Shown here one piece after another: positions 17,810-36,447 of a stretch of DNA of 39,594 nucleotides. The notes under the pieces were generated by a model, which did no database searches, was not told the DNA's origin, and worked only from the letters and a program-made list of their open reading frames with translations. The stretch is from an uncultured Monoglobus sp. (GTDB taxonomy: Bacteria > Bacillota > Clostridia > Monoglobales > Monoglobaceae). A program made the translations under genes and the position numbers. Numbering within the stretch: position 1 is the stretch's first letter; every line of letters begins with the position of its first letter. The stretch spans positions 1 through 39,594 of the forward strand of contig CANQLT010000013.1 of assembly GCA_947624775.1 (NCBI GenBank), written 5' to 3'.

Positions 17810-19108
17810 ATGCGAGATAATTTATACGGCGACATCGCGCTCAGAACTCAGGGGGATATATATATCGGCGTGGTGGGCCCTGTGAGGACAGGAAAGTCAA
17901 CGTTTATAAAGCGGTTCATGGACCTGCTTGTGCTGCCCAATATAGGCGACGACTACAAGCGGGAGCGGGCAATGGACGAACTTCCCCAGTCCGCCGCGGG
18001 CAAAATGATAATGACGACCGAGCCCAAATTCATACCCAACGAGGCGGCGCGGATAACGGTGGGCGATCACGCCAATCTCAAGGTGCGCATGATCGACTGC
18101 GTGGGCTACATAGTCCCGAGCGCCCTCGGACATATCGAAAACGAGATGCCGCGCATGGTTATGACGCCGTGGTCGCAGACGCCGATGGAGTTTGAGCAGG
18201 CGGCGGAGATCGGAACGCGCAAGGTCATATCCGAGCACTCCACCGTGGGGGTCGTGGTGACGACCGACGGCAGCATAACCGAGATACCGCGCGCCGATTA
18301 CGAAAAAGCGGAGGAGCGGGTCGTGAACGAGCTGTCGGCGCTCAAAAAGCCGTTTGTAATACTGCTCAACACCGCGGACCCGGGCGGCGCGGAGGCCGAA
18401 AAGCTGGCGGAGGAAATGAGCGCGAAATACGGCGCCGCGGTCATTCCCGTAAGCTGCGCCGATATGGACGAGAGCGACCTTAACAATATCATGGAAAAAA
18501 TACTTTACGAGTTCCCGCTGATGGAGCTTCGGGTCTCGGTGCCGTCGTGGCTGTCGTCGGCGCAGGGCGGCAGCGTCGCCGATGATATTTACGGCGTGAT
18601 CGAAAGCGCCGACAAGATCTCAGACGTCGAGAGCCTGCCCGCGCTTCTGGCCGAAAGCTGCGGATTTATCGAGAGCGCCGCGGTGACCGATATAAACCCG
18701 GGCTACGGCGAGGCGAAGATAGAGATAACCGTGCCCGAAAACCTGTTCTTTAAGACCCTCAACGAGCGCACTGGGCTCAATATAAACGACCGCCAGGCGC
18801 TGCTCGGGCAGCTGGAGGAATTGGCGGACATGCGCAAAAAATACGAGAAGGTCGCGTTCGCGCTTGGCGAGGTCGAGCGAGACGGCTACGGCATAGTCTA
18901 TCCCTCAATCGACGAGCTGACTCTCGAGGAGCCCGAAATAATCAAGCAGGGCAGCCGCTTCGGCGTTCGGCTCAAAGCGGGCGCCACGTCCATCCACATG
19001 ATAAAGGCCGACATAAAAACAGAGGTCTTAAAATACAAAATGACGCTGGGCATAAAATCCGCTAAAAAGTTTCAGAATTTCGATGTTGAATATGCATTTG
19101 CTTTATGA
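17810..19108 (+). CDS. spoIVA: Stage IV sporulation protein A, C-terminus replaced at a mobile-element junction
   Basis: SpoIVA is the ATPase that polymerizes into the basement layer of the spore coat. Residues 1-406 match the family well: Walker A 'GPVRTGKS' (23-30), 'DELPQSAAGK', 'IMTTEPKFIPNEAA', 'EIGTRKVISEHSTVGVV', and 'EPEIIKQGSRFGVRLKAG' with 'IHMIKADIKTEV'. Bacillus SpoIVA has 492 residues. After Val406 the usual 'PIIGTEKQSEEL...' and the last 85-90 residues are absent. They are replaced by 26 unrelated residues ending at TGA 19106-19108, and element genes start right after. The lost part is needed for forespore localization through SpoVM. The ATG follows AAGGAGG. The protein is probably non-functional unless the element can excise. 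Confidence 0.93.
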   Translation: MRDNLYGDIALRTQGDIYIGVVGPVRTGKSTFIKRFMDLLVLPNIGDDYKRERAMDELPQSAAGKMIMTTEPKFIPNEAARITVGDHANLKVRMIDCVGYIVPSALGHIENEMPRMVMTPWSQTPMEFEQAAEIGTRKVISEHSTVGVVVTTDGSITEIPRADYEKAEERVVNELSALKKPFVILLNTADPGGAEAEKLAEEMSAKYGAAVIPVSCADMDESDLNNIMEKILYEFPLMELRVSVPSWLSSAQGGSVADDIYGVIESADKISDVESLPALLAESCGFIESAAVTDINPGYGEAKIEITVPENLFFKTLNERTGLNINDRQALLGQLEELADMRKKYEKVAFALGEVERDGYGIVYPSIDELTLEEPEIIKQGSRFGVRLKAGATSIHMIKADIKTEVLKYKMTLGIKSAKKFQNFDVEYAFAL

Positions 19109-19205: not shown

Positions 19206-20156
19206 ATGAACATGGTTCACTTTGACTATTACTACGGCAATGAGGCCGAGCAATTTGTGTTTTACCGCATACCTAAGATTTTAGTCACATCGCCATATTT
19301 TAAAAAATTATCCGACAGCGCGAAACTGCTGTACGGCATGATGCTTGACCGTATGGGGCTGTCGGTCAAAAACGGCTGGTTTGATGAAGAAAATCGAGCG
19401 TATATATACTTTACTGTTTCCGATGTTATGGAGTATATGTGCTGCGGAACCGAAAAAGCCACAAAACTGATCGCGGAGCTTGATTCAAAAAAAGGCGTCG
19501 GACTTATCGAGCGTATAAAGCGCGGTCAGGGCAAGCCCGCAAGAATATACTTGAAGAAATTTGTTGAAACCGCTTCGGATGTGAGGTTTTCGAAAACCGA
19601 AAGTCAAGACTTCGTTAAATCAAAAGTTAAGACTTTCGAAAATCGAAATTCAAGACTTTCGCATACCGAAAGCGCAGAGTTTCGGAAATCGAAACGTAAT
19701 GATAATAAATATAATAATATCAATATCAGTAATACTTATATGAGTAATATCAATCAAGTCAATAACGGCGGCGACACCGCTCGGTGGACCGACAGATATA
19801 ATGACGTTATCGAAGAAATTAAAGCTCAAATTGAGTATGACAGTTTGATTGATTCGGGTGATACGGAAATAATTGATAATATAGTCAATGTTATGGCTGA
19901 CGTAATGATTATTGATACACCGTATTATTGCATTGAGGACAAAGAAATACCCGTAGAGTTGGTTCGGATACGTTACCGGCAAATAAACCGAAATAATTTG
20001 GAGTCTTTCCTGCTTGAATTCAAAAAGATATATTATAAAATACATAACCCCAAAGCATTTCTTGTATCGGCGCTGTATAACGCGGCATTGACCGCGGATA
20101 CAGCGCTTTTAAACAGAGTAAGTCATGATTTGTACGGAGGTGAAAAATTTGAGTGA
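19206..20156 (+). CDS. repA: Replication initiator RepA (RepA_N family)
   Basis: This 316-aa initiator opens replication of plasmids and ICEs by binding iterons. The N-terminal winged-helix domain (about 1-120) shows the family pattern 'FYRIPKILVTSPYFKKLSD' and 'AKLLYGMMLDRMGLS'. The middle (about 125-190) is low-complexity and coincides with DNA iterons. The C-terminal domain ('YNDVIEEIKAQIEYD...ALYNAALTADTALLNRVSHDLYGG') is the one found in Tn1549-like elements. AAAGGAG lies upstream of the ATG. It overlaps the parB start by 8 bp. In this family the origin lies inside the gene. Confidence 0.88.
   Translation: MNMVHFDYYYGNEAEQFVFYRIPKILVTSPYFKKLSDSAKLLYGMMLDRMGLSVKNGWFDEENRAYIYFTVSDVMEYMCCGTEKATKLIAELDSKKGVGLIERIKRGQGKPARIYLKKFVETASDVRFSKTESQDFVKSKVKTFENRNSRLSHTESAEFRKSKRNDNKYNNINISNTYMSNINQVNNGGDTARWTDRYNDVIEEIKAQIEYDSLIDSGDTEIIDNIVNVMADVMIIDTPYYCIEDKEIPVELVRIRYRQINRNNLESFLLEFKKIYYKIHNPKAFLVSALYNAALTADTALLNRVSHDLYGGEKFE
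19588..19702. repeat. Five tandem 23-bp iterons inside repA (candidate replication origin)
   Basis: Units begin exactly every 23 bp at 19588, 19611, 19634, 19657 and 19680, each starting TTTCG or TTCG. Unit 1 reads TTTCGAAAACCGAAAGTCAA plus GAC, and unit 3 TTTCGAAAATCGAAATTCAA plus GAC. Units 2, 4 and 5 are more diverged. Because 23 is not a multiple of 3, the repetition cannot be a protein repeat. An A/T-rich stretch (about 19700-19760) follows and would suit duplex opening. Confidence 0.8.
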
Positions 20157-21000
20157 CACAGAGGAGATAAAATTAATTTCGCTGAGCGATCTCAGGCCTT
20201 TTGAGGAGCAGCCGTTTAAAGTGAGACTTGACGAGAGCATGGACGAGCTTGTTAGAAGCGTCAAAGAAAGCGGCATACTTTCACCGATAATAGCGCGCAC
20301 GGGGAAAGACGGCTGCTATGAAATATTATCGGGACATCGAAGAACCAAAGCCTGTGAAATTGCCGGCATTAAAAATGTTCCCGTTATAGTGAAAAATCTT
20401 GATGACGACTCGGCGGCAATACTCCTTGTGGACAGCAATTTGCAGCGTGAAAACATACTTCCCAGCGAAAAGGCTTATGCGTACAAATTAAAGCTTGAAG
20501 CACTAAAACATCAAGGAGCCAGAACTGATTTAACTTCTGGCCAAATTGGCCAGAAGTTAAAAACATCGGTAGAGACTGTTGCCGAGCAAAACGGAGAAAG
20601 CTATAAGCAAATTCAGCGGTATATTCGATTAACCGAATTGATTGATCCTCTGCTTAATTTGGTTGACGAGAAACGGCTGCCGTTAAATGCGGCCGTTGAG
20701 TTATCTTATCTGGGAACAAAAGCGCAGGCCGACGTTGTGCAAATGATAGAGCGGCATGAGGCGGTGCCTTCAATCGGACAAGCCGCAAAAATGCGCAAGT
20801 TTGCAGAGGAAAATCGACTCAGCTATGATGTTATGGATTCGATAATGCTGGAACAAAAACCCGAAAAAATAAAAGTTGTTCTCAAAGAGGACAGACTTCG
20901 GAAATATTTTCCGAAAAATTATACTCCGAAACAAATGCAGGACATTATAGAAAAACTGCTGTCCAAATGGGCGAGAAACAGAAAGGAGCCTGAGAGATGA
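20149..21000 (+). CDS. parB: ParB-family partition/nucleoid protein
   Basis: This 283-aa ParB has the CTPase/Srx-like N-domain (residues about 9-110: 'LSDLRPFEEQPFKV', 'SGHRRTKACEIAGI', 'VDSNLQRENILPSEKAYAY'). The helix-turn-helix region 'AEQNGESYKQIQRYIRLTEL' follows. It should bind parS-like DNA and help segregation or regulate element genes. The start is TTG at 20149, well spaced from CGGAGGTG; the upstream ATG at 20125 lies before that site. It overlaps repA by 8 bp. No ParA is visible in the window, although the left side of such elements often has one. A long perfect palindrome lies within the gene. Confidence 0.9.
   Translation: MSDTEEIKLISLSDLRPFEEQPFKVRLDESMDELVRSVKESGILSPIIARTGKDGCYEILSGHRRTKACEIAGIKNVPVIVKNLDDDSAAILLVDSNLQRENILPSEKAYAYKLKLEALKHQGARTDLTSGQIGQKLKTSVETVAEQNGESYKQIQRYIRLTELIDPLLNLVDEKRLPLNAAVELSYLGTKAQADVVQMIERHEAVPSIGQAAKMRKFAEENRLSYDVMDSIMLEQKPEKIKVVLKEDRLRKYFPKNYTPKQMQDIIEKLLSKWARNRKEPER
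20529..20561. repeat. 33-bp perfect palindrome inside parB
   Basis: Two 16-base arms, TTTAACTTCTGGCCAA and its exact reverse complement, surround a single A. It encodes the 'TSGQIGQKL' segment before the HTH. Perfect arms of this length are not required by the protein code. Confidence 0.8.
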
Positions 21001-22102: not shown

Positions 22103-25100
22103 ATGGCGAGAAAGGCGGAGCGAATATTTGAGCTGTACCGACAAAATTTAAACGAGCTGTCCGAATATAAAAACTGGACAGCTTTTTTGCGTTCGGCAGC
22201 TTGGCAATATAAGTATTCATTTGCGGATCAGGTGAGTATTTTTGCCCAAAGACCCGACGCTACGGCTTGCGCATCTATGGATGTATGGAACAAGGATATA
22301 CGCAGATGGGTTAACCGCGGGGCCAAGGGAATCGCGCTGCTGCGGGAAAACGGCGGCAGGTATTATCTGAATTATGTTTTCGACATATCCGATACAAACA
22401 GTTTTTACGGAAACGAGTTTCATATATGGCGGTATGATAATCAATACGACGGCGCCGCAGTTGAAGCGCTTGAGAGAACTTTCGGCGAGCTTGCGGGCAG
22501 GGACAATCTGGCCGATGCGGTAGTGTGGGCGGCTCATAACGCAGTACTTTCAAATCCGGAATATATTGACAGGCTGTTTGCCGAACGGTATGACAGCTTT
22601 TTTGATGAATTGGATCAGGACAGTATTGGAATAAGGTACAGACTGACGGCCGAAATGTCGGCGGCATATATTGTTTTGCAAAGACTCGGGTATGATGCGG
22701 ATGAAATTCTTGACGAAGATAATTTTCATTTTATTAGTGATTTTAATACACCGGAAACCATATCTGTTCTCGGAACCGCTGTCAGCACAATATCCGAAGA
22801 TATTTTGACGGAGATCCGCGAAGCCGTGTCTTTGCAGCAGGAATTTGTCAAATCTCAAAATACGGTATATAATGAAAATAACTTACAGGAAAGGAGCGCT
22901 GAACATGGAACTGACATACAAGCGCAGCGGAGAGTACCTGATACCGAACCTGACGGTATCGACAGAGCCCTATCGGATAGGGAAATACGGAATGATGCGG
23001 AGGACGTTTCTGCTGAACAACCGCAGGAGCAAATACAACGAAATGCTGATGAGCGGAGCCCTTCTCGGCCATCTGGAGGAAATCGACAGAACGGCGAAGG
23101 AGCAGATAGACGCAGCAGTGAAGAAAATGGCAGAGAGCGAGCAAGCGGACGAACAGATGAAAGCGAAAGACCCGCTCGGCTGGGCGGGAATGATGAACAA
23201 TTTTCGCAGTTCGGCGGAGGAACAGATAATGAGGGAACTGATTTTCAGTTAAGTCTGGATGATCTGTTTCCGTCAATACAGGAGCAACAGAATATAGTGT
23301 CGCGGGCGGAGCAAAACAGCTCCGCTTTTACTATGCCGCCGCTGCCGCAGCAGATAATAGACGAGGTTCTTGTAAGCGGGGCAAACAGCGCCGACAGTAT
23401 ACTCAGGATATGTATTCAGTACAGCAAAAACAAAAGTTCTGATGAAAATATTGAGTTTTTGAAGTCCGAATACGGAACCGGCGGCAAGGGCTTTATCTTC
23501 GATGGCACAAAAATGTCCGTGTGGTGGAATGAAGATGGAATAAAAATAGCCCGCGGCAATAATGCGATATTAAATCCGCGGAGCGAAATAATAGGATGGG
23601 AGCAGGCTGACAGCCGTATCAGAGAATTGCTGAAGCTCGGCAGATACGCGCCGCAGGAGACGCTTGACCGAATGGAAGAATTTGAGCGCAGAGACGCGTC
23701 ATACGCATTCTGGTATATGCGTCAGGATATAAACTCCGATGATTTCCCGGAACTGAAGAATTCTTTTCCCGAAGGTTTGTTTGACGGAGGTTTTCCGGCA
23801 AGTACGGCTAAAATAGCGGAAATGTTAAAAGACACCGTTGGATTAAACAGGCTCATTTCCGATACGGAGGCTTTGTATGACAGCTATAAATATGACAATA
23901 ATGTAATGCGCTGGCAGCTGTACACTCCCGACAAAGTTCTTGGCAAGCTGGAAGATTTACATCTCGAAAGACTACACTTTGCCGCGGACGAATATCAGCA
24001 TACGGAAACCGGCAGATTTATCACGGAAGATGAACTCGACGGACTGTTTCTGCGCGGCAGCGGCTACAGCGACAGTAAGATAAGAATATATTTGTATTTT
24101 ACGGAGCATACCGACGGCAAGGAGCGCAGAGATTTTTTAAAAAAGGAATACGGCATAGGCGGCCACAGTTCGGGAATATTCCGCGAAGAATATGAAAACA
24201 AAGGCATTACTTTCAGCCGCGTCGATATATATTCGCCGAATTCCACAGTTAAAATTTCATGGAATGATGCAGCGAAACGTATTGACAAACTGATAAACTC
24301 GGGCAGATATTTAACACAAAAGCAAATTGCGGAAGATATACCGAAGTACAATGCGGAGCAGGAACGTTTGAGGGTGCGCGGAGAACAAATGCAATTCGTG
24401 GACAGCGCAAGTGAAATGTCACAGCAGGAACGCGCTCTCACATTGACGACCAGATTAATGTATTATATAAACACGATTGATCTGTCTGACCGCCGAATTC
24501 TTGAAAATGACGGCCATTCCGATTTAATCGGTGCAGATGAGTTTCGGATAGCCGATATGCTCAAAGACGCGGACAAACGCGGAAGGATCATAAATTCTCT
24601 CAATACAATTCAGTTTCGGACGACAGATGTATACGCTCGAAGCAATGCGTATGATATAGCGGAGGATTTGAAAAAATTACAGGTTGTTGAGCTTTACAGA
24701 GTCGGAGATTTTTATGAATTATACGGAGATGAAGCGGAAAAAGCAGCTGAAATACTAAATCTGACAACCACGTTCAAGCGGATTGACGGAGAAAAAGTTA
24801 CTATGACCGGATTTCCCGCAATGAGCGTCGAGAGATATGAAGAAGAGCTTAACAAAAACGGCATAATTGTAAGTCTTGCGGAAGAAAGATTACTTAATCG
24901 GGCAAAGCTGATAATAAACGAATTTTCCCTGAATCAATATGATACCGAAGCCGATTTTTCCGATCTTGAGAATGTGCGGCTTGCATACACTATATCCGAG
25001 AACGGTGAGAATGAAACACGAGTTGACGCCGACCTTGTCAATTATCGTATATTGCAGTCTGTAAACAATCAAGTTGTTAACACAATACAGTTCAGCGATC

Positions 25101-28100
25101 TTGATGACATGACGGAAAATTTTCTCTCAAGTATGCAGTTTGACGACCTTGTGTTTATGTACGCAAGCGATGTTGCTGCCGTTTTGCCGGAAACGGATGA
25201 ACATATAGCGGCGGATATTTCCGAAATCGACGATACAGAAATAAGCCGTAACGATCTCATTGGACGGGAACTTGAAATAGATGACCGCAGATTTGTTATT
25301 GAGGATATATCGGAAATCGGCGGCGATGTGACAATGAGGGATATAACATTTGAGGACAATATCGGATTCCCGATCGACCGTGTTGAAAAAATAGGCGTGG
25401 TTCAGCGTATCCTCAACGAGCAGCGCGAGCCGTTGCAGCCCGAGGCGGACAATGGTTCCTCTGCTGTAATTACGGGGGATATGATCAATCCGGAGGTTCC
25501 CGAATCCGAACGAATTAATTTCATTATCACGGATGATAATCTCGGCGTCGGCGGCGCAAAAGAAAAGTTTAATAATAACATAAACGCCATAATGACACTC
25601 AAAAAATGCGAGAGCGAAAACCGTCTTGCAGCTTCGGATGAACAGGAAATCCTTTCAAAATATGTCGGATGGGGAGGTTTGCAGGAAGCGTTTGATGACT
25701 CAAAGCAGAACTGGAGCAAAGAGTATTTGCAGCTTAAGGACATACTTACCGATGATGAATATAAATCAGCGCGTGAAAGCACGCTGACAGCTTTCTATAC
25801 GCCGCCTGTGGTAATTCGCTCGATATATTCCGCGCTTGAAAACATGGGACTCAAACAGGGCAATATCTTAGATCCGGCTATGGGTATAGGTAATTTTGAA
25901 GGTATGCTGCCCGAGAGCTTAAGAAACTGCAACGTATATGGAGTGGAGATTGACAGTATTTCGGGAAGAATCGCACGTCAGTTATATCAAAAGAATAAAA
26001 TTGCTGTTCGGGGATACGAGGATACGGAACTTCCGGACAGTTTTTTTGATGCCGCGGTAGGCAATGTGCCGTTCGGTCAGTTTAAAGTTATGGACAGAAA
26101 ATATGACAGGCACAACTTTTTGATCCACGACTATTTTTTTGCCAAAACACTTGATAAAGTTCGTCCCGGCGGTGTGATAGCCTTTGTTACTTCAAGCGGG
26201 ACAATGGATAAGAAGAATTCCAATGTGCGGAAATATATTGCGCAAAGGGCGGAATTTATCGGTGCTGTGCGTTTGCCTGATAATACGTTTAAGGCAAATG
26301 CCGGCACAGAAGTGACTTCGGACATAATATTCCTGCAAAAACGAGACCGTATGGTTGATATTGAACCCGAATGGGTGCATCTCGGCATAGATGAAAACGG
26401 ATACGCGATTAATCAATATTTTATTGATAATCCGAACATGGTGCTCGGTGATATGGTTGAAGAAAGCGGACCGTTCGGTATGCGGCTCAGTTGCAAAGCT
26501 TATGATGGAGCAAATCTTGAGGAGCTTTTAAGCGGAGCAATACAAAATCTTAAAGGCCGTATTTCCGAGTACGAATTTGATGAAGCCGAAATCGGCAATG
26601 TCGAGTTTATTCCGGCGGATCCCGACGTTAAAAATTTTTCATACACGGTTGTGGACGGTGATATATATTACCGTGAAAACAGCGTTATGAATAAAGTAAA
26701 CGTGTCAAAAACAGCGGAAAACCGTATTAAGGGAATGATTGAGATACGCGACTGTGTAAGAACACTGATCGAATATCAGACCGAAGGTTATTCAAATGCG
26801 GAAATTAAAAATCAGCAGTTAAAACTTAATACTTTGTATGACGAGTATACCAAAAAATACGGTCTGATAAATTCGCGCGGCAACAGTATGGCGTTTTCAA
26901 CGGACAGCAGCTATTTTCTGTTATGCTCGCTTGAAATTCTGGACGATAACGGTGAACTCGAGCGCAAAGCGGATATGTTTACCAAACGGACTATCGGGGC
27001 AAGACAGGAAATATCCCATGTTGATACCGCAAGCGAGGCTTTGGCTGTTTCTATAGGTGAAAAGGCCGAGGTGGACATGGAATATATGTCGGAGCTTTGC
27101 GGAAAGAGCGAAGATGAAATATTCGAAGATCTGCAGGGAGTGATTTTTTTAAATCCTCTTTACGGAACAAACAGTTCCGAGGAGAAATACTTACCCGCCG
27201 ATGAGTATCTTTCCGGCAATGTGCGGGAAAAACTGAGGACGGCAAAAGCTAAAGCCGAAACCGATCCGAAATATGAAATAAATGTTAAATCACTTGAGAA
27301 AGTTCAGCCCAAAGACCTGACTGCCGCCGAAATAACCGTTCGGCTCGGAACCACGTGGATTCCCGAATCGGATTATCAGGACTTTATACACGAGCTGCTT
27401 ACTCCGTCGTTCTGGGCGCGCGAAAATATAAAACTTAGCTACACCCCATACACGGGAGTGTGGAACATTGCGAGAAAGAGTTATGACAGAGGCAATGTAA
27501 AAGTACATAATACTTACGGAACAAGCCGTAAAAATGCCTATGAGATCATAGAAGAAACTCTTAACCTTAAGGATGTTCGGGTATTTGATTATGTGGAAGA
27601 TGAAAACGGCAGCCGAAAAGCTGTTTTAAACTCCAAAGAGACTACAATAGCTCAACAGAAGCAGCAGGCCATCAAGGACGCTTTCAGTGAATGGGTATGG
27701 AAAGATCCAAAACGGCGTGAACGGCTGACAAAGCTGTATAACGAAAAGTTTAACTCAATTCGCCCGAGAGAATATGACGGGAGTCACATTAGGCTGCCCG
27801 ATATGAATCCCGAAATAAAGCTGCGCAAACATCAGAAAAACGCAGTTGCCAGAATATTGTACGGAGGCAACAGCCTTCTCGGTCATGTTGTTGGCGCGGG
27901 CAAGACGTGGACAATGACAGCTGCTGCTATGGAAAGCAAAAGGCTGGGACTTTGTAATAAGTCCCTTTTTGTTGTGCCGAACCATTTAACCGAACAGTGG
28001 GCAAGCGAGTTTTTGCAGCTCTATCCGGGCGCAAACATATTGGTTGCAACCAAAAAGGATTTTGAGACCAAGAATCGAAAAAAGTTTTGCGGCAAAATCG

Positions 28101-30286
28101 CTACCGGAGATTATGACGCGGTAATAATCGGACACAGCCAGTTTGAGAAAATCCCTATGTCAATAGAAAGGCAGCGTATGACACTGAGCCGTCAGCTTGA
28201 GGAAATAATTGCGGGAATTGCCGAGGCAAAAGAAAGCCGAGCCGAGAGATTTACAATAAAGCAGCTTGAAAAAACAAGACGCAGCATTGAAACAAAGCTC
28301 AAAAGCTTAAATGACCAAAGCAGAAAAGATGATGTTGTAACCTTTGAAGAACTGGGCGTTGATAGGCTGTTTGTGGACGAGGCGCATTATTATAAAAATT
28401 TGTATCTTTACACAAAAATGAGAAATGTGGGCGGTATTGCCCAGACGGAAGCCAAAAAATCTTCCGATTTGTTTATGAAATGCCGTTATCTTGACGAATT
28501 GACCGACAGCCGCGGAATATGCTTTGCGACGGGAACGCCTATATCGAATTCAATGGTAGAGCTTTATACTATGCAGCGGTATTTGCAGTATAACACCATC
28601 GCGGAAAAAGGACTTCAAAATTTTGACGCGTGGGCATCAACATTTGGTGAGACGGTGACGGCGATAGAACTTGCGCCCGAAGGCAGCGGCTACAGAGCAA
28701 AAACACGGTTTGCCAAATTCTATAATCTTCCTGAACTTATGAATATGTTTAAAGAAACGGCGGATATCCAGACGGCCGATATGCTGAAACTTCCCGTGCC
28801 CGAGGCTGACTTTCACAATATAGCGGTAGAACCAACCGAAATGCAGAAGCAAATCGTTAAGAGCTTATCGGAAAGAGCCGAAAAAGTCCGCAATCAAGTT
28901 GTTGATCCCACAGTCGATAATATGCTGAAAATAACCAATGACGGCAGAAAACTCGCACTTGACCAAAGGTTGATTGATCCTATGCTGCCGGACGGGGAAC
29001 AAACCAAAGTTAGTGTTTGCGCCGATAATGTTTATGAGATTTGGCAAAAAACAGCCGATCAGATAGGGGCGCAGCTTGTGTTTTGCGATCTGTCAACTCC
29101 AAAATCCGACGGCGAGTTCAGCGTATATAACGATATTAAGGATAAGCTGACGGAAAAAGGCGTTCCCGAATCACAGATAGCGTTTATCCATGACGCTAAA
29201 AATGAGGCTCAGAAAAAAGACATGTTTGCCGCGGTCAGGAACGGAACAATCAGAATACTTCTCGGTTCGACACAGAAAATGGGCGCGGGAACCAATGTAC
29301 AGAAACATCTGGTGGCGATGCATGATCTCGACTGCCCGTGGCGTCCGTCAGATCTTGAACAGCGCCTCGGAAGAATTGTGCGTCAGGGAAACCTTAACGA
29401 CAGAGTTGATATTTACAGATACGTCACCAAGGACACTTTTGACAGCTACATGTATCAGCTGGTCGAGCACAAGCAGCGGTTCATATCGCAGGTAATGACA
29501 AGCAAGTCTCCGGTTCGTTCCGCCGAGGATATAGATGAAGTCGCGCTGTCATACGCGGAGATCAAGGCGTTAGCAACGGGAAATCCGCATATTAAAGAAA
29601 AAATGGAGCTTGATACGGAAGTTGCAAAGCTGAAACTGCTCAAATCAAACTTTTTAACTCAAAAATACGCGCTGGAGGATAAGATAATAAAATACTACCC
29701 GGAGCAGATACGTTCCTATGAGGGAAAAATCAGCGGAGTGAAGAAAGATATTAAAATTTTAGAGCGGAACCCGAGACAAGATGATTCTTTTTGCCCTATG
29801 GAGCTTAAAGGGGCGGTATACACAGATAAGGAACAGGCGGGCAAGCGGCTTATTGAAATATGCAAGTCAACAAATTCCGTGTCGGAAGTGGCTATCGGAA
29901 AATACCGCGGTTTTGAAATGAGTATATATTATGAACCGTTTTATTTGAAATATATGATGTCGCTTAAAGGCAGTTTATCATATACCGTTGAGCTTGGAAC
30001 CGATACGTTCGGCAACATACGCAGGATAGACAATGCTATTGAAAATATACCGAACCGTCTTAAAAGTTTTGAGGCAAACCTCACGGAAACAAAACAACAG
30101 TTTGAAAATGCCAAAACAGAAGCCGTAAAAGCGTTTCCGCAGGAGGATGAGCTTGCGGAAAAAAGCAAACGGCTCGCCTCATTGGACGCACTTCTGAATA
30201 TGGATAAGAAACAAAGCGACGCCATAGACACATCGGCGCCCGACGAAATTCGTGATAAACAAAAAAACAAAGTTTTTGAAAGATAG
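22103..30286 (+). CDS. Giant (2727 aa) ArdC-like / N6-adenine methylase / SNF2 helicase polyvalent protein
   Basis: The N-terminus (about 1-115, '[20 protein letters not shown]', '[14 protein letters not shown]') resembles ArdC-type antirestriction domains. Residues 268-383 are a disordered E/R/G/S-rich stretch that also encodes TnpV in another frame. Two related LPD-like units follow (about 430-520 and 655-740). A MutS-I/YodL-like segment ('[15 protein letters not shown]', about 863) is next. The methylase (about 1135-1415) has motif I 'DPAMGIGNF' and motif IV 'NVPF'. The helicase has Walker A 'GAGKT' (about 1931), 'VDEAHYYKN' (about 2092) and motif VI '[11 protein letters not shown]' (about 2420). 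Known for such proteins: shielding of the incoming element from host defence. No frameshift is seen. Confidence 0.9.
22905..23252 (+). CDS. tnpV: TnpV-like protein encoded in an overlapping frame of the giant gene
   Basis: This 115-aa reading frame lies wholly inside the giant methylase/helicase gene, shifted by one base. A strong AAAGGAG site (22890-22896) precedes the ATG by 8 bases. The protein matches the TnpV family throughout: '[18 protein letters not shown]', '[15 protein letters not shown]', '[14 protein letters not shown]', '[18 protein letters not shown]', and it ends in the usual 'RELIF'. The segment is visibly GC-richer than its surroundings. TnpV is a conserved accessory protein of Firmicute transposons with unsettled function. 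Both frames stay open across 348 bp, so both products may be made. Confidence 0.8.
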
Positions 30287-34799: not shown

Positions 34800-34819
34800 A
34801 TATGGAAAGGTTAAGTTTT

Positions 34820-35122
34820 ATGAGATCACGCACAGAATCGGTATTGATCAGATTGACAAAAACCGAGAAAAGCAAGTTAAAATCTCAAGCGGAAATTGCC
34901 GGCTTGAAGATGGAGCCGTTTGTCAGAAAACTTATTATGGGTGTGGATATCAGGCCGCGCCCGCCCGATAATATTTCAAGGCTGCTTCGAGAGATAAACG
35001 CAATCGGCAACAACATAAATCAGATTGCAAGAATGGCGAATACATGCAAAAACGTAAGCAGCGATGATATAGACGAGGTATTGAAGCTTCTCGGCGAGAT
35101 ATACATAGCAGTGAAACGCTGA
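34820..35122 (+). CDS. mobC: MobC-like relaxosome protein
   Basis: This 100-aa protein starts with a ribbon-helix-helix-like segment ('TESVLIRLTKTEKSKLKSQA') and continues with the MobC signature 'LLREINAIGNNINQIARMAN'. MobC binds and melts oriT DNA so that the relaxase can nick it. ATG 34820 has GGAAAGG nine bases upstream; ATG 34802 is before it. The stop overlaps the relaxase start by one base. Confidence 0.9.
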   Translation: MRSRTESVLIRLTKTEKSKLKSQAEIAGLKMEPFVRKLIMGVDIRPRPPDNISRLLREINAIGNNINQIARMANTCKNVSSDDIDEVLKLLGEIYIAVKR

Positions 35123-36447
35123 TGGCGATAACCAAAGTATATGCTGTGCGCAGCCGTCTCAAGAGAGCCATAAGCTACGCCGCGAATGAGGAAAAGACGG
35201 CTCTGTGCAATATTATTGACTATGCCGCAAATCCGTCCAAAACCGAACAGCGGCTTTTTGAAAGCAGTATTAACTGCATGAGTGTCGAAACCGCATACAA
35301 TGAGATGATGGAGACAAAACACAAATTCGGAAAAGAAGGTAAGGTCCTTGCTTATCACTATATCCAGTCATTTGCACCCGGCGAGGTTACACCCGAACTG
35401 GCACATAAAATAGGATGCGAGTTTGCCGCCGAGTGCTTCGGTGACAGATTTGAGGTTGTCATCGGAACGCATCTTGATAAAAACCATCTCCATAATCACG
35501 TTATTGTCAATTCGGTTTCATTTACTGACGGCGGCAAGTTCCGTTCTACACCCAAAAGCTACTATAATATAATCCGCAAAACATCAGACAGGTTGTGTAG
35601 AGAGTATAACCTGTCCGTGATCGAACAGCCCAAGCGCAGAGGCAAGCATTACGCCGAATGGAGCGCCGAAAAACAGGGCAAGCCCACAATCAGAGGCCAG
35701 ATGCGCGAGGAACTCGATGAAATAATAAAGCAGTCATACACAATGAGCGGGTTTTGGATGCTTCTTAAACGGCGCGGTTATGTTATTTCTCGGCTGGGTG
35801 AGAATGTGCTGCATACCTCAATAATACCGCCTTACGGAAAAAGAGCGATCAGGCTTGACAGTCTGGGCGACGATTATTCGGAGGAAAGTATAAAGGAACG
35901 AATATCGGCGCAAAGAAACGGGATAGTATCGGCTCCGCCGCAAAGGGCAAAACAATTTCACTACAGCGGCGACATAAGAAAACATAAGCCGAAGAAACTG
36001 CGCGGCTTTCAGGCGCTGTATTTTCATTATCTGTACTTCTTCAATTTAATACGCAGAAAACGGACACCGCAGCGGGTGTCATTTTTTATGCGTGATGAGA
36101 TTATAAAATTCGAGAGGTATCAGAAACAGCTGAAATTTTTGCGGCTCAACAACATTGAAACAGCGGCAGATCTGGAAGAATTCAGATGCCGAACCGAAGA
36201 AAAAATCAATGATTTGATTGATGAGCGCAAAAATGTGTATTCGGAAAGAACGCCAGAGAATGAGACTGAGATTAAGTCAAAAGCCGCAGAGATCAACCGC
36301 AGGCTCCGCCTGATGCGCGGCGATATCCGTATGTGCGATAAAATATTATCGGATTCAAAACATATTGCCGATAAACAGCGGCAGGCCGATGAAATTATAA
36401 AGCAAAAGGATGTGGTGAGAAATGGATACAAGCGGGGAAGTCGCTGA
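35122..36447 (+). CDS. mobA: Relaxase/mobilization nuclease (MOBP-like)
   Basis: This 441-aa relaxase nicks oriT and carries the strand into the recipient. The N-terminal domain (about 1-180) holds the three-His metal motif in 'GTHLDKNHLHNHVIVNSV' (near residue 118). A Tyr early in the protein, probably Tyr19 or Tyr34 ('AISYAANEEKT', 'IIDYAANPSKT'), would be the nucleophile. The middle ('GQMREELDEIIKQSYTMSGF') is the region seen in Tn1549-type relaxases. The C-terminal 130 residues are charged and coiled. It is translationally coupled to mobC and overlaps pcfB by 26 bp. Confidence 0.9.
   Translation: MAITKVYAVRSRLKRAISYAANEEKTALCNIIDYAANPSKTEQRLFESSINCMSVETAYNEMMETKHKFGKEGKVLAYHYIQSFAPGEVTPELAHKIGCEFAAECFGDRFEVVIGTHLDKNHLHNHVIVNSVSFTDGGKFRSTPKSYYNIIRKTSDRLCREYNLSVIEQPKRRGKHYAEWSAEKQGKPTIRGQMREELDEIIKQSYTMSGFWMLLKRRGYVISRLGENVLHTSIIPPYGKRAIRLDSLGDDYSEESIKERISAQRNGIVSAPPQRAKQFHYSGDIRKHKPKKLRGFQALYFHYLYFFNLIRRKRTPQRVSFFMRDEIIKFERYQKQLKFLRLNNIETAADLEEFRCRTEEKINDLIDERKNVYSERTPENETEIKSKAAEINRRLRLMRGDIRMCDKILSDSKHIADKQRQADEIIKQKDVVRNGYKRGSR

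Follow-up and report, generated by a model that had tools for sequence, protein, structure and literature searches.

What is the purpose of five 23-bp direct repeats that lie within the coding sequence of a replication initiator gene, on an element that itself lies within a sporulation gene? The window, that is the whole stretch of 39,594 nucleotides analyzed here, carries on its + strand the gene repA (19206-20156), which codes for a protein of 316 residues. An earlier reading of the DNA, made from the sequence alone, had taken the product to be a RepA_N-type initiator, and this is borne out by Pfam (RepA_N, E 1.2e-27; DUF6017, E 6e-9) and by matches to the solved RepA-DNA structures (PDB 4pta, 4pt7 and 5kbj), the first of which is also matched by sequence (E 5e-21). 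The N-terminal RepA_N domain, a winged-helix DNA-binding domain (aa 19-92; codons at 19260-19481, + strand), scores 96 bits against PF06970, for a cut-off of 30. A structural search, which covered the N-terminal domain of RepA, matched its model to 4pql (Z 14.4) and to 5kbj, a Rep-DNA complex (Z 13.5), with the best other fold at 8.0 and the N-terminal domain of DnaD (2v79) at 7.3. The C-terminal DUF6017 domain (aa 196-312; 19791-20141, + strand) is modelled as helical, mostly with high confidence. Between these ordered domains, residues 124-188 (codons at 19575-19769, + strand), encoded by the repeats and by a T-rich run behind them, are predicted to be disordered, with a pLDDT below 50 in the AlphaFold model. 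This linker region seems, from the model, to be unneeded by the protein as structure; the linker of the pSK41 Rep protein is dispensable (PMC5703833).

The repeat array inside repA

The sequence-only reading had described five 23-bp units in perfect register, starting from 19588. They were recovered by a direct-repeat search, which found four 46-nt copies from 19588 spaced by 23, 23 and 23 nt, and by Tandem Repeats Finder, which assigned to 19588-19694 a period of 23 and 4.7 copies. When repA was compared with itself, a lag of 23 scored 36, for a maximum of 13 among 40 codon shuffles (z 19.7); the runner-up was a lag of 15, with a score of 15. Although perfectly spaced, the units are just about 65-72% alike, as measured over 46 nt. 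The unit starts given in the sequence-only reading are correct; by symmetry, the natural unit begins three bases before 19588, and in this dyad register the array extends from 19585 to 19699. The five units occupy codons 127-165, approximately, of the 316-aa open reading frame, and their length of 23 bp is not divisible by three.

The unit consensus, GACTTTCGA-AAA-TCGAAAGTC-AA, is an imperfect dyad formed by two 9-bp arms that flank an A-tract, with a spacer of 2 nt. All five units are on the + strand. Iteron 1 (19585-19607; GGTTTTCGA AAA CCGAAAGTC AA) agrees with the ideal dyad unit at 20 of 23 positions, iteron 2 (19608-19630; GACTTCGTT AAA TCAAAAGTT AA) at 17, iteron 3 (19631-19653; GACTTTCGA AAA TCGAAATTC AA) at 22, iteron 4 (19654-19676; GACTTTCGC ATA CCGAAAGCG CA) at 17 and iteron 5 (19677-19699; GAGTTTCGG AAA TCGAAACGT AA) at 18; iterons 2 and 4 are thus off the ideal unit at six positions each. 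In the rest of the 39.6-kb window, the top match to the ideal unit reaches 15 of 23. The iterons of RepA_N replicons are semi-palindromes converging on a poly-A tract (PMC7145576), and the consensus found here, with its two arms around AAA, has this form.

An origin inside rep, as the sequence-only reading had stated for RepA_N plasmids, is indeed a known layout of the family, and in pSK41 the ori has been mapped to this very segment (PMC5703833). The array is in all likelihood a RepA_N in-gene origin, of a layout already known from staphylococcal plasmids. Very probably, the five units are RepA binding sites (Rep boxes, or iterons) which, together with the T-rich stretch, make up the origin of a theta-replicating RepA_N replicon, lying inside its own initiator gene between the half that codes for one domain and the half that codes for the other. 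By analogy with the Rep proteins of pSK41 and pTZ2162, each 23-bp dyad would be bound by RepA dimers through their winged-helix N-terminal domain and bent at the A-tract, with the dimers stacked along the array; the T-run next to the array would melt, and the C-terminal domain, the host DnaD or both could recruit primase and helicase there. The origin would act once the mobilizable element is circular. It is from homology that we infer binding, melting, loading and replication after excision.

The replicons of pSK41 and pTZ2162 from Staphylococcus (PMC5703833; PDB 4pql, 4pt7, 4pta and 5kbj) have in common with this one the RepA_N domain, a central position of the Rep boxes within rep, a linker encoded by the origin and dyads centred on an A-tract. 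They have four units, however, whereas there are five here, and the initiator described here has a DUF6017 C-terminal domain and belongs to an integrated element of a clostridium. The PLE satellite of Vibrio cholerae is likewise an integrating element that has a large serine recombinase, a RepA_N initiator and semi-palindromic iterons, but these iterons are located in a noncoding region and not inside repA (PMC7145576). Iterons as such are no surprise in a RepA_N replicon; their use is that they mark the origin with single-base precision in a large number of clostridial elements for which there is only a sequence.

The element that interrupts spoIVA

The 5' part of spoIVA (codons 1-406; 17810-19027, + strand) breaks off at 19027/19028, as seen by comparison with an intact relative (L099), and the longer SpoIVA of relatives is matched only over aa 1-407. 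The 3' part is found on contig C101 (5495-7400; L127, L131), in frame behind a serine recombinase, the order of domains being Resolvase, Recombinase, zinc ribbon and then SpoIVA_C. A 9-bp core, ACAGAGGTC, forms attL (19019-19027, + strand) and is identical at attR on C101, beside the spoIVA 3' part; it is also present in the intact spoIVA of relatives. Therefore, recombination within the core would restore spoIVA, with ..AAAACAGAGGTCAGCCC.. as the predicted restored site, and close a circle, with ..GTCACACAGAGGTCTTAAAATAC.. as its predicted junction. An assembly artefact at the spoIVA junction was judged unlikely, as each junction lies on a different contig and both have the 9-bp core. The earlier estimate of 19-37 kb does not take in the whole element, which begins within spoIVA at 19028 and ends on another contig. 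The element comprises at least 20.6 kb in the window and about 5 kb on C101.

The cargo includes a parB-type partition gene, which overlaps the end of repA (20125-21000, + strand; Pfam ParB_N, E 3e-20), a gene for a ParM-like actin, and a mobC/nikA-like gene with a MobA/VirD2-type relaxase (34802-36447, + strand; Pfam NikA-like, E 1e-17; Relaxase, E 9e-40). We call the element mobilizable because it carries the relaxase and MobC; no complete transfer system was seen in it. Also in this region are a perfect 16-bp inverted repeat inside parB (20529-20561; arms TTTAACTTCTGGCCAA and TTGGCCAGAAGTTAAA, with one base between them), possibly a parS site or an operator, and an open reading frame of 2727 aa (22103-30286), whose very large, composite product matches MutS_I, helicase domains (ResIII, Helicase_C) and, weakly, an Eco57I-type methylase.

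The array could be a relic, if the element stays integrated and its origin no longer fires, or if RepA serves transfer only. This we regard as unlikely. It is true that the element is integrated in spoIVA, that two of the units are degenerate and that PMC7145576 cites Weaver et al. for the suggestion that RepA_N proteins have new roles when they are carried by conjugative transposons. Yet the repA open reading frame is intact, the iterons are conserved relative to the nearest copy of the element (in genome G007; see below), parB adjoins repA and a ParM-like actin gene is present, and the att core is intact at both sides. Autonomous replication of the element after excision is plausible.

The array and the T-rich run in related genes

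Relatives of repA were drawn from whole genomes, plasmids, phage records and two contig collections; in one of these, viral_contigs, relatives were retrieved with an alignment query and none with a single-protein scan. The sequence-only reading had proposed looking for the 23-bp register in related repA genes, and it was found at the same place. In a first set, 23 bp was the best and significant lag in 56 of 81 genes, and some others have 22 or 24; seven of the 81 have another N-terminal domain in place of RepA_N, and none of these seven has a 23-bp array. In a second set, the 23-bp period was present in 90 of 98 further genes (median aa 138-172), and a different class of Firmicutes is represented by two plasmids, one of S. 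epidermidis and one of S. equorum, whose 23-bp arrays lie at aa 125-153. A minority of the relatives is without a clear array.

The unit sequence varies widely from gene to gene (GAAGTCAGAAAATCGAACTTC, GAATAGTGAAAATCACAATTC and ACACTTCCGGAAGTGTCGAAA, for example) and is uniform inside each gene. The dyad is kept across relatives: on average 6.4 of its 8 pairs hold, for 4.7 in shuffled sequences (41 genes, not fully independent). Relative to G007, the nearest copy (97% protein identity), there is one substitution in the 114 nt of the iterons and there are 14, of which 10 silent, in 396 nt of the C-terminal part. Since spacing, place and dyad persist while the sequence of the unit varies between genes, and since the peptide encoded by the array is predicted to be disordered, selection acts on the DNA. 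The sequence-only reading had drawn this from a period that is not a multiple of three, an argument that is sound though incomplete; the persistence of spacing, place and dyad under a varying unit, together with the predicted disorder, is the stronger evidence. Both the iterons and the adjoining T-run are under selection as DNA, and units that are homogeneous within a gene and variable between genes look like the outcome of concerted evolution, the binding site changing along with the protein that belongs to it.

The type of iteron and the DNA-binding domain travel together. Genes with a RepA_N domain have arrays of 22-24 bp; genes with an HTH_36 domain have a 15-bp CCNACGTTGGAAAAN array and no 23-bp array, and some DUF6017 relatives bear HTH_36 where others bear RepA_N. 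Seven loci (L009, L010, L011, L018, L019, L020 and L027) code for HTH_36 and DUF6017 initiators with an in-gene 15-bp CCNACGTTGGAAAAN array, followed by an A/T-rich stretch with ACT codons. Between pPR9 and pSK41, the DNA-binding domain and the iteron array are swapped together (PMC5703833). Chimeric initiators of the pPR9 type, with an N-terminal HTH_36 domain (PF13730), resemble the DUF6017 proteins examined here in that the DNA-binding half and the array are exchanged as a block and the C-terminal half is kept, but the gene in the window is of the RepA_N type. Because domain and array are exchanged as a pair, the comparison supports the N-terminal domain of RepA as the probable reader of the iterons.

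It is improbable that the array serves, instead of an origin, as a parS-like centromere for the neighbouring ParB or as an autoregulatory operator. The gene for ParB directly follows repA, and iteron initiators often autoregulate, but genes with the same array can have no parB listed next to them, for example in pAPRE01 and in the S. epidermidis plasmid, and the type of array tracks the DNA-binding domain of RepA; moreover, the corresponding segment in pSK41 is the mapped ori (PMC5703833). Hardly credible is a selection on the RepA peptide, as a repetitive linker, rather than on DNA: the fragments KTFENRxSR and EFRKS do recur among the closest relatives, but the 23-bp period changes frame at every unit, the linker is predicted to be disordered, other relatives keep the period with wholly different peptides, and the adjoining stretch is strongly skewed in its choice of synonymous codons.

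That stretch, which the sequence-only reading had noted as A/T-rich, lies at about 19698-19760 (+, the coding strand) and has a 15-bp phasing of its own (Tandem Repeats Finder, period 15 at 19715-19754), with T at most third bases (TnnT). We propose that this T-run would be the melting and loading part of the RepA_N origin. In the window, 19692-19748 contains nine TnnT on the coding strand, against 2.3 expected. The run encodes NNTDI-like peptides, and its codons, pooled over 47 genes, differ from those outside it: ACT accounts for 94% of the Thr codons inside and 27% outside, and AGT for 79% and 20%, respectively, of the Ser codons. Expectations for NNT and NNA codons were obtained by resampling synonymous codons from the same gene. 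Over the 18 codons that follow the array in 113 non-redundant genes, NNT was found 11.0 times, against 6.8 expected, and NNA 3.2 times, against 3.3. The preference is for T, therefore, and not for A/T generally. In 111 genes, TnnT occurs 7.8 times on the coding strand, where synonymous codons would give 3.5 (Wilcoxon p 5e-19, a value overstated by relatedness), and there is no excess on the opposite strand (10.0 against 9.8 expected).

Both staphylococcal plasmids examined, from S. epidermidis and S. equorum, have the 23-bp period and then a 15-bp stretch, and the idea that this stretch is tied to DUF6017 alone was rejected for that reason and because, in the HTH_36 genes, the 15-bp score comes mostly from their own iteron. 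A reading of the stretch as a DnaA-trio was rejected too, as the complementary strand is not a 3'-GAT-5' run.

The way in which RepA_N initiators load the replisome has been called unknown (PMC7145576). In B. subtilis, DnaD requires two TnnT motifs on a single strand and finds them at oriC, in the DnaD Recognition Element next to the DnaA boxes (PMC10201434). The trait shared with that element is a strand-specific TnnT run adjoining initiator boxes; there the boxes are those of DnaA, whereas here they are Rep boxes, and DnaD would be a putative reader of the run. The host genome encodes a DnaD-type protein. Tentatively, and with somewhat less than even confidence, we suggest that RepA_N origins hold a second, unrecognised module, a strand-specific TnnT run directly 3' of the iterons and in the codons of the disordered linker, which would be read in single-stranded form by a DnaD-type protein (the host DnaD or the DnaD-like part of Rep), making it the plasmid equivalent of the oriC DnaD Recognition Element; here, it would serve a plasmid-type element that interrupts spoIVA and would be excised to restore it. 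No description of a TnnT module at RepA_N origins was found in the literature searched, and one may exist elsewhere. The strand-specific signal behind the iterons offers a concrete, testable answer to the loading of the RepA_N replisome and, with spoIVA and cotJC as integration sites of plasmid-type elements, may be what a specialist would not expect.

Related insertions in sporulation genes

The element has the features of a sporulation gene-intervening element: both parts of spoIVA are retained, a serine recombinase lies at the junction, and the core is a direct repeat that restores the frame. The host genome retains spoIIIAE, and therefore sporulation may still be a live trait. With skin, gin and yin (PMC5025042, PMC5595907, PMC10747680) the element has in common a sporulation gene split by a serine-recombinase element, a short shared core and a rejoining that restores the frame; it differs from them in being of plasmid type (RepA_N, ParB, ParM and relaxase), in spoIVA or cotJC, and in that its excision during development is conjectural.

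The G007 copy of the element sits in cotJC and not in spoIVA, and a truncated cotJC adjoins a repA of the same family in other genera too. The insertions in spoIVA and cotJC suggest that plasmid-type elements, and not prophages alone, use sporulation genes as homes. RepA_N elements were seen in cotJC in several genera (L081, L035/L174, L037, L017, L170 and L171), at two sites, before PNGE and at DIGTEE, and the half of cotJC next to repA can be either one. Genome G005, which is closed, has cotJC in three pieces (C1 2742566-2745440 and 28575-28964; L162-L164), split by elements of other kinds: a small recombinase element and a prophage of about 40 kb that spans the start of the record. As aligned, the 3' piece contains a single internal TAG. 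Four further genomes of the genus (L119/L168, L120/L169, L116/L129 and L123) also have an interrupted cotJC, with the break at the GGPNGE site, and a serine recombinase gene lies beside the cotJC 5' piece in G011 (L166) and G013 (L165). Just 5' of the recombinase, two cotJC elements have an open reading frame of about 75 aa, ending in IEKKYKQR or LEKKYSM (L160, 2608-2832; L161, 3377-3598), which could code for a directionality factor. A short open reading frame with an exported-looking product (ITENIIGGILDEVYxGLGYG...) is present near the recombinase ends of both spoIVA and cotJC elements (L131, 3374-3937; L160, 3438-3878; L168, 1699-2256).
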